NCBI RefSeq assembly: GCF_016924645.1
Contig: NZ_JAFFJV010000006.1
Span: 124,001-188,000, forward strand
DNA: 64,000 nt
Reading direction: 5' to 3'
Source of the DNA: Rufibacter psychrotolerans
GTDB lineage: Bacteria > Bacteroidota > Bacteroidia > Cytophagales > Hymenobacteraceae
Position 1 is the first letter of the stretch. The number at the start of each line of letters is the position of its first letter. Below, in pieces: positions 13,501-30,273 of the stretch. The notes below the pieces were generated by a model. It was not told the DNA's origin. It worked only from the letters and a program-made list of their open reading frames with translations, and ran no database searches. Both the position numbers and the translations under genes were made by a program.

Positions 13501-13509
13501 ATATAGTCC

Positions 13510-13535
13510 TGAGTTCTGAGTCTTGAGTTCTGAGT
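13510..13535. repeat. Heptamer array, left arm of inverted pair
   Basis: TGAGTTC, TGAGTCT, TGAGTTC, TGAGT: 3.7 units of a 7-nt repeat, 10 nt after the ccmE stop. Its reverse complement matches the array at 13617-13650 over 19 contiguous bases. Confidence 0.85.
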
Positions 13536-13616
13536 AAAAAAATCATTCAAGCCAAGCCTCTCTACTCATTAGTGTTATTTTTTATCAGAGTGAATCGTTC
13601 CGGTTTTAGGTATTTC

Positions 13617-13650
13617 AGACTCAAGACTCAGAACTCAAGACTCAAGACTC
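13617..13650. repeat. Heptamer array, right arm of inverted pair
   Basis: AGACTCA, AGACTCA, GAACTCA, AGACTCA, AGACTC: 4.9 units, ending 6 nt before the ccmF ATG. With the left arm it can fold into a long stem enclosing about 80 nt, placing the ccmF start at the foot of the hairpin. Confidence 0.85.
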
Positions 13651-17354: not shown

Positions 17355-17684
17355 ATGAAAGTCGTAAATATTACATATAAGTTCGAGGACGGAAAGCCCG
17401 ACGAAACCCACCTGGGAGCCGAAGGCGAATCGGTGCTGGACGTAGCCTTGAACAATGGGATCCATCTGCAGCATAACTGCGGCGGGGTGTGCGGGTGCAG
17501 CACGTGCCACGTCTACGTAGAGAGCGGCATGGATGACCTGCCTGAGATCTCAGACAAAGAAGAAGATTACATTGACCGCGCCGTGAACCCCAGAATCAAC
17601 TCGCGGCTGGCGTGCCAGTGCGTGGTGCAAGGAGGGCAGGACCTGGTGGTGACCATTCCCAAGCAAGATTTCCTGGGGCACTAA
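17355..17684 (+). CDS. Adrenodoxin-type 2Fe-2S ferredoxin
   Basis: 109 residues. Cluster ligands fit Cys42, Cys48, Cys51 and Cys87 (C-x5-C-x2-C, then C), with NCGGVCGCSTCHVYVE and LACQC around them. This is the ISC-type (adrenodoxin-like) ferredoxin class, which donates electrons in Fe-S assembly and other pathways. Its neighbour iscX supports a link to Fe-S biogenesis, but iscS, iscU and iscA are not in the window. Two further cysteines (46 and 89) flank the ligands. It has its own consensus promoter. Confidence 0.92.
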   Translation: MKVVNITYKFEDGKPDETHLGAEGESVLDVALNNGIHLQHNCGGVCGCSTCHVYVESGMDDLPEISDKEEDYIDRAVNPRINSRLACQCVVQGGQDLVVTIPKQDFLGH

Positions 17685-17688
17685 CTTT

Positions 17689-17724
17689 CTTAGTTGTTAG
17701 TGATTGGTTAGTGGTTGTTAGAAG
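17689..17724. repeat. TTAG-rich short-repeat array, left arm
   Basis: Units TTAGTTG, TTAGTGA, TTGGTTAG, TGGTTGTTAG begin 4 nt after the ferredoxin stop. The opposite strand resembles the array at 17779-17826. Confidence 0.75.
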
Positions 17725-17778
17725 CTTAGCCTGCCCAGGATGCAATAACTGGAAACAATGCTTCGTGAACTACCAAAG

Positions 17779-17826
17779 ACTAAAAACCAACCTAACAACT
17801 AAACACTAAACACTAAAAACCAAAGA
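17779..17826. repeat. ACTAA-rich short-repeat array, right arm
   Basis: Units such as ACTAAAAACC, AACCTAACAACTA, AACACTA, AACACTA run up to 2 nt before the iscX ATG. Inverted relative to the 17689-17724 array, with about 55 nt between: the same layout as the 13510/13617 pair but with a different sequence. Confidence 0.75.
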
Positions 17827-17828
17827 AT

Positions 17829-18068
17829 ATGAGCAATCTATATGAGCCGCCCATGAAGTGGAGCGACCACGAAGACATAGCCATGGCGCTTTATGAGAAG
17901 TTTGGCGATGAGTTTGGCGAGAACAAGATCTACCGCATCCGGTTTACCGACCTGTTGGAGTGGGTGCTGAGCCTGCCCAATTTTGAAGGCAAGCGCGAAG
18001 AAGCCAATGAGGCCCACCTGGAGCAGATTCAGGCCAAATGGGTGTACGAGTGGCGCGATAACCAATAG
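17829..18068 (+). CDS. iscX: IscX (YfhJ) family Fe-S assembly accessory protein
   Basis: 79 residues with the IscX pattern: MKWSDHEDIAMALYEKFGD, then RIRFTDLLEWVLSLPNFEG and a C-terminal IQAKWVYEW. IscX is a small acidic protein that binds IscS and iron and tunes Fe-S assembly. The neighbouring ferredoxin fits this role, although the rest of the isc cluster is elsewhere. The start lies 2 nt after a repeat array, so little room is left for a ribosome-binding site. Confidence 0.87.
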   Translation: MSNLYEPPMKWSDHEDIAMALYEKFGDEFGENKIYRIRFTDLLEWVLSLPNFEGKREEANEAHLEQIQAKWVYEWRDNQ

Positions 18069-30124: not shown

Positions 30125-30143
30125 GCAGTACCCCTCTGTTTCT

Positions 30144-30176
30144 GCCCTGTTTTCCAGAAAAAGCCCCCAAAACGCC
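30144..30176. repeat. Dispersed palindrome copy
   Basis: GCCCTGTTTTCCAG, AAAAAGCCCCC, AAAACGCC; 19 nt after the stop of paralog B. Confidence 0.75.
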
Positions 30177-30196
30177 TTTCGGAGGATAGGATAGCC

Positions 30197-30255
30197 CCAA
30201 GCAGCAGCGCCCGGTTGAAAGCTCTATAAACTTTCAACCGGGCGCTGCTGCTTGG
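30197..30255. terminator. Perfect 25-bp stem, bidirectional terminator
   Basis: Left arm 30197-30221 (CCAAGCAGCAGCGCCC, then GGTTGAAAG) pairs without mismatch to 30231-30255 around a 9-nt loop. No long T-run, but it lies exactly between two converging genes. Confidence 0.8.
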
Positions 30256-30273
30256 TTAAGTTTTGCTCAGGTG

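Follow-up and report, generated by a model that had tools for sequence, protein, structure and literature searches.

Facing heptamer arrays between ferredoxin and iscX in Rufibacter psychrotolerans: members of a dispersed family of predicted hairpins whose words differ at the same intergenic sites

Heptamer repeats have long been noted in bacteria, without an agreed origin. Two described systems come closest to the sequences reported here. The accessible part of one report presents the heptanucleotide STRRs of cyanobacteria as degenerate 7-nt repeats that base-pair into a hairpin and fall into two word classes (PMC3488679). The other system comprises direct repeats of TAACTGA from Beggiatoaceae, cyanobacteria and Bacteroidetes. 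These are described, in the sections available, as intergenic arrays near start codons in one orientation, with one set lying after a stop codon in reverse; they are treated as direct repeats, the 170 sets of the main genome including one inverted case (MacGregor 2015, PMC4679880).

The window analysed here is the whole stretch of 64,000 nucleotides taken from the R. psychrotolerans contig NZ_JAFFJV010000006.1 (positions 124,001 to 188,000). Its fdx-iscX gap (17685-17828) holds two facing arrays of a 7-letter word, which are predicted to be able to fold into a hairpin, and its ccmE-ccmF gap has the same layout with a different word:

17355-17684, plus strand: 2Fe-2S ferredoxin gene (fdx), an ORF with its stop TAA at 17682-17684
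17690-17721: left arm of the fdx-iscX pair, a T/G-rich TTAGTTG/TTAGTGG array (TTAGTTGTTAGTGATTGGTTAGTGGTTGTTAG)
17722-17771: loop of the fdx-iscX pair, single copy in the genome
17772-17823: right arm of the fdx-iscX pair, the inverse A/C-rich ACTAAAC/ACTAAAA array
17829-18068, plus strand: iscX, an ORF with its ATG at 17829, named from the first-pass annotation and its position
13505-13535: left arm of the ccmE-ccmF pair, with the word AGTCCTGAGTTCTGAGT
13536-13616: loop of the ccmE-ccmF pair, single copy in the genome DNA examined
13617-13650: right arm of the ccmE-ccmF pair, with the inverse ACTCAAG/ACTCAGA word

The left fdx-iscX array begins 5 nt past the ferredoxin stop and the right one stops 5 nt short of the iscX ATG. 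Positions 17690-17721 pair with 17792-17823 over 32 nt at 75% complementarity, including an 11-nt perfect core; the RNA fold has an energy of -33.3 kcal/mol (z -3.1), and 1 of 200 shuffles was equally good. The ccmE-ccmF arms are 96% complementary over 24 nt (fold z -5.3), and 0 of 200 shuffles did as well. The first-pass annotation had proposed that TTAG-type and CTAA-type arrays face each other near a stop codon and an ATG, that an unrelated word repeats this architecture at 13510-13650 (the ccmE-ccmF gap), and that neither pair is a chance product; each of these points is borne out by the coordinates, the 5-nt distances and the shuffles. The unit is 7 nt in the right arm; the left fdx-iscX arm is irregular (Tandem Repeats Finder period 11). 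No other heptad pair turned up when 30 gaps of the window were scored; the remaining strong stems are of other kinds. The top z-score of the window scan belongs to a co-directional gap at 30125-30270, with a 22-nt near-perfect inverted repeat, CCAAGCAGCAGCGCCCGGTTGA. An intrinsic terminator was rejected at both pairs: on reading the sequence, no U tract lies 3' of either stem, and the right arms run into the start region (AGAAT ATG; TTTATA ATG). Rfam returned no family at its gathering score.

The arrays belong to a dispersed set of degenerate 7-nt tandem units (period 8 in some relatives) which occupy, at many loci, the space from one gene's stop codon to the start region of its neighbour; the further examples that the annotation had called for are numerous, both in this genome and in orthologous gaps of relatives. 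A scan of the 5.18-Mb genome for three units with at most two mismatches gave 62 matches to word A (ACTAAVV) and 209 to word B (ACTCARR). Weak word-A matches are unreliable, because a backward control also yields 38; the reversed-pattern control for word B is uninformative, the pattern being identical when read backwards. Word B fits NNTGAGT, which we take to be class 2 of the cyanobacterial heptanucleotides. In the genome DNA examined, words A and B form 89 merged arrays, mostly in facing pairs. The arms of both window gaps match many unlinked places and their loops are single copy, the ccmE-ccmF loop having been searched for within the examined part of the genome. Array sites include convergent and divergent gaps, so that the suggested tie to co-directional genes sets the limits too tightly. 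An inverted-repeat scan of one contig (C13, 195 gaps) found mostly other stems and few heptad gaps. An exception to the facing-pair layout is L060 (C24:122184-122286), where three word-B-like arrays follow one another on one strand, with ACTCGGT variants.

Each word has one polarity, and the gene-side end of its arrays breaks at one point in the word. Counting both arms of a pair, and with genes taken from greedy ORF calls, the T/G strand points outward from the gene in 46 of the 50 arrays within 20 bp of a gene end and in all 32 that follow stop codons; 14 of 18 start-side arrays within 20 bp share one orientation. The break at the gene-side end falls directly after ACT or ACTC in 50 of 57 arrays of word B, and a random break should do so, by our own estimate, about 2 times in 7; the modal called length is 33 (32 of 61). 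The '-+' polarity of word B rests on the 20 pairs of neighbouring arrays within 700 bp in the own genome (18 '-+', 1 '+-', 1 '++'); a further, hand-picked subset of word-B rows was set aside for this purpose. In relatives, word C is '-+' in 13 of 13 cases, one row (G041) being omitted, and word H is '+-' in 13 of 13 among the matches listed for 5 of the 20 genomes with matches. A universal rule that the T/G arm comes first was therefore rejected: it holds for words A, B and C, and word H is opposite.

Different words occupy the same gaps of different species. An inverted repeat with period 7 or 8 was present in 27 of 30 ccmE-ccmF gaps of relatives, in 12 of 30 orthologous fdx-iscX gaps and in 12 of 22 orthologous ccoNO-ccoQ gaps. 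With the same gene calls, 40 of 64 target gaps passed, compared with 6 of 135 further gaps from the same sequences; the target gaps were chosen since the source genome has arrays there, and the source genome is included in the counts. A looser test, which accepts any inverted repeat beating shuffles (smallest possible p 1/61) and takes in some non-heptad stems, gave 27 of 30, 22 of 30 and 19 of 22, respectively. The word varies between genera and sometimes between sister species. At ccmE-ccmF it is ACTCARR in most congeners, AACTCTT/AACTTTT in G005, G006 and several other genera, the 8-nt AACTTTCT in G026, G030 and G034, AATTATT in G016 and G032, and AATTCAG in G019 and G028; arms are absent in G008 and G036. 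At ccoNO-ccoQ, congeners carry AACTGAC/ACTAAC, GACACAAG or TAGATGT words, or none, and the A-rich start region beside the ATG is retained while the words change; no heptad pair was seen in G002, G011, G003, G005, G019 and G024. The fdx-iscX gap, whose fdx was matched in 50 of the 59 genomes searched, is just 11 bp long in one congener, G004. Outside the family, the ccoNO-ccoQ gap measures 2-4 bp in G039, G050, G045 and G042 (L249, L251, L252, L253), and the longer gaps of the family accordingly look like insertions. In a FastTree tree of 27 genomes built from the flanking genes, G005 falls inside the word-B clade despite its different word. In G010 the arms and loop at ccmE-ccmF (L157) resemble those of G000 and G004, and the flanking genes group G010 with G002; recombination of this gap is possible. 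Upstream of hemE (L197-L218), a TATCTTTG-like box directly before the ATG is kept in most relatives while the array changes, and in G007 six ACTCAAG units stand immediately 3' of the preceding stop. The same gap keeps a hairpin in related bacteria while its spelling differs, and no simple known process explains this fully.

The words themselves follow lineage. Word B was detected in all 16 genomes of the genus. Elsewhere in the family, it occurs in 4 of 5 genomes of one genus (g3; 1-8 matches) and gave no match in the 16 genomes that represent four more genera; words C, F and H occur in other lineages, and word sets are lineage-specific. In a collection of genomes, the exact four-unit word-B pattern was found in at least 118 stretches and, among the matches listed, in Rufibacter, other Bacteroidota, many cyanobacteria, Acidobacteria, Nitrospira and others. 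An inverse partner lies within 400 bp of 10 of the 80 word-B loci in the matches listed, and 9 of these pairs have the polarity seen here. A plasmid search returned short word-level matches only, the best two being Nostoc plasmids.

We tentatively propose, at somewhat under an even chance, that the arrays form polar hairpin cassettes, similar to foldback elements, which are dispersed in the genome and turn over at fixed sites between genes. Each cassette would carry two copies of a 20-35-nt array in opposite orientation, built from a word of 7 nt (sometimes 8 nt), on either side of a loop peculiar to its locus. Its arms may spread by copying between loci, through ectopic conversion or insertion of preformed arms; the cassette would be replaced or lost whole at tolerant sites, and retained where an intercistronic hairpin is harmless or useful. 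This reading is favoured by the recurrence of a single word at many unlinked places whose loops are single copy, by the one polarity of each word, the phase-locked gene-side ends, the turnover of words at fixed sites and the lineage-specific word sets, as well as by the tight gaps elsewhere and the signs of whole-cassette change: 48 of 105 loop pairs match in the forward direction overall, and the loops of the word-C species, G005 and G006, match no other loop in that direction. Fast loop decay could mimic such replacement. Against the cassettes, no target-site duplication was found (mean shared flank word 3.2 vs 3.2 when swapped). The single-copy loops and the lack of this duplication led us to reject the idea that the arms are the termini of a single transposed cassette whose interior is common to all copies.

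The annotation had suggested a process acting in place, by slippage plus inversion or template switching. In its developed form, slippage expands a 7-nt unit, and template switching at the hairpin uses one arm as the template for the other, so that the arms remain complementary as the word drifts. We regard this as doubtful. In its favour, own arms pair better than those of other species, at fdx-iscX (23.5 vs 17.3 within the genus and 13.3 between genera; 29 gaps, omitting the 11-bp gap of G004) and at ccmE-ccmF (38.5 vs 31.8 and 16.5; 30 gaps), a level that none of 5000 permutations reached at either locus, including when they were confined to genera. The words found at one locus resemble each other (AACTCAG, AACTCTT, AATTCTT), and template switching is known, from the accessible text of two reports, to create and repair hairpins and to keep their arms uniform (PMC8794818, PMC8604942). 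Within the own genome, arms of the same locus match each other slightly better than they match arms from elsewhere (41.4 vs 39.1, a value reached in 61 of 5000 permutations), so that some local templating is conceivable. However, the in-place process is weakened by the fixed polarity, by the phase-locked ends and by words common to many unlinked loci around single-copy loops; loop homology is lost where the word changes. Spacer inversion was rejected as rare, reversed loops accounting for 2 of 105 and 3 of 91 pairs. Nor is there base-pair covariation among the 12 of 16 congeners aligned with the same word, which leave out G005 and G006 (other word), G008 (no arms) and G007 (long loop): 87.5% of cells are paired vs 88.0% when shuffled. 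Since the arms are conserved as words, complementarity within the genus follows from a single word in both arms. In-place slippage with template switching is possible, but has less support than dispersed cassettes.

The same lack of covariation removes one proof of a selected RNA stem. On that account, a stem or a lineage-specific word-reading protein affects translation or mRNA ends, and the hairpin is kept whatever its spelling. We think it unlikely, although sites are retained across genera and the arms are conserved (0.91 and 0.90) above the loop (0.70) and the fourfold sites of ccmF (0.74, 19 sites); a binding protein was also proposed for start-proximal TAACTGA arrays in the available text of MacGregor (PMC4679880). 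Speaking against it are the arrays in convergent gaps and upstream of the promoter-like box of hemE, the missing U tract behind the stem, the absence of the cassette from some relatives, and the neighbours of 12 array loci, among which no function in common was seen.

About seven dispersed repeats of 450-500 bp carry word-B arrays and have interiors and inverted ends in common: L042-L044 (C13:457600-458140), L082 (C34:47890-48420), L018/L031 (C5:2720-3240), L086, L096 and L094. Their order is an outer hairpin CTCGTAG...CTACGAG, the word-B array and then CCCCTCCCAGGAGGGG. That the short pairs are remnants of these repeats, that is, ends of a classical MITE, seems to us quite improbable: a shared interior is seen in the long repeats only, the window gaps match neither their outer hairpin nor their interior, target-site duplications are lacking, and the other words are left unexplained. 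Chance low-complexity sequence, for which the simplicity of the words might speak, has next to no probability given the folds that beat shuffles, the biased array orientation, the best pairing of own arms and the excess in target gaps.

Foldback (FB) transposons have inverted termini of short tandem repeats around a variable middle. The dispersed cassettes favoured here recall them, but are much shorter and show no target-site duplication. A wider extension, in which they form a cross-phylum class of miniature prokaryotic foldback elements with polar inverted heptad arms, each lineage rewriting the same sites, we hold to be improbable at present. Template-switch quasipalindromes likewise have inverted arms that stay alike, but, as far as the accessible text describes them, are not built from arrays in which a genome-wide word keeps one polarity (PMC8794818, PMC8604942). 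The available text on TAACTGA sets shares with our data oriented heptamer arrays near start codons, and no paired arrays, per-word polarity or orthologous word swapping were found described in it (PMC4679880); the words here are ACTAAVV and ACTCARR rather than TAACTGA itself, though ACTGACA variants occur. Dispersed degenerate 7-nt tandem units are common to the heptanucleotide STRRs and the present arrays, whose hairpin is predicted; the former are described, in the part available, at one locus in an RNA gene, whereas the latter recur at many loci, separate protein genes and differ in word from species to species (PMC3488679). Paired inverted heptamer arrays that swap words were not found in the literature searched, most subscription journals lying outside it; nor did that literature describe pairing, a fixed polarity or the exchange of words at orthologous sites. 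Orthologous gaps with the same hairpin in different words offer a natural experiment that can separate copying, in-place templating and selection. Among described systems, the family is closest to the cyanobacterial heptanucleotide repeats and the TAACTGA arrays.
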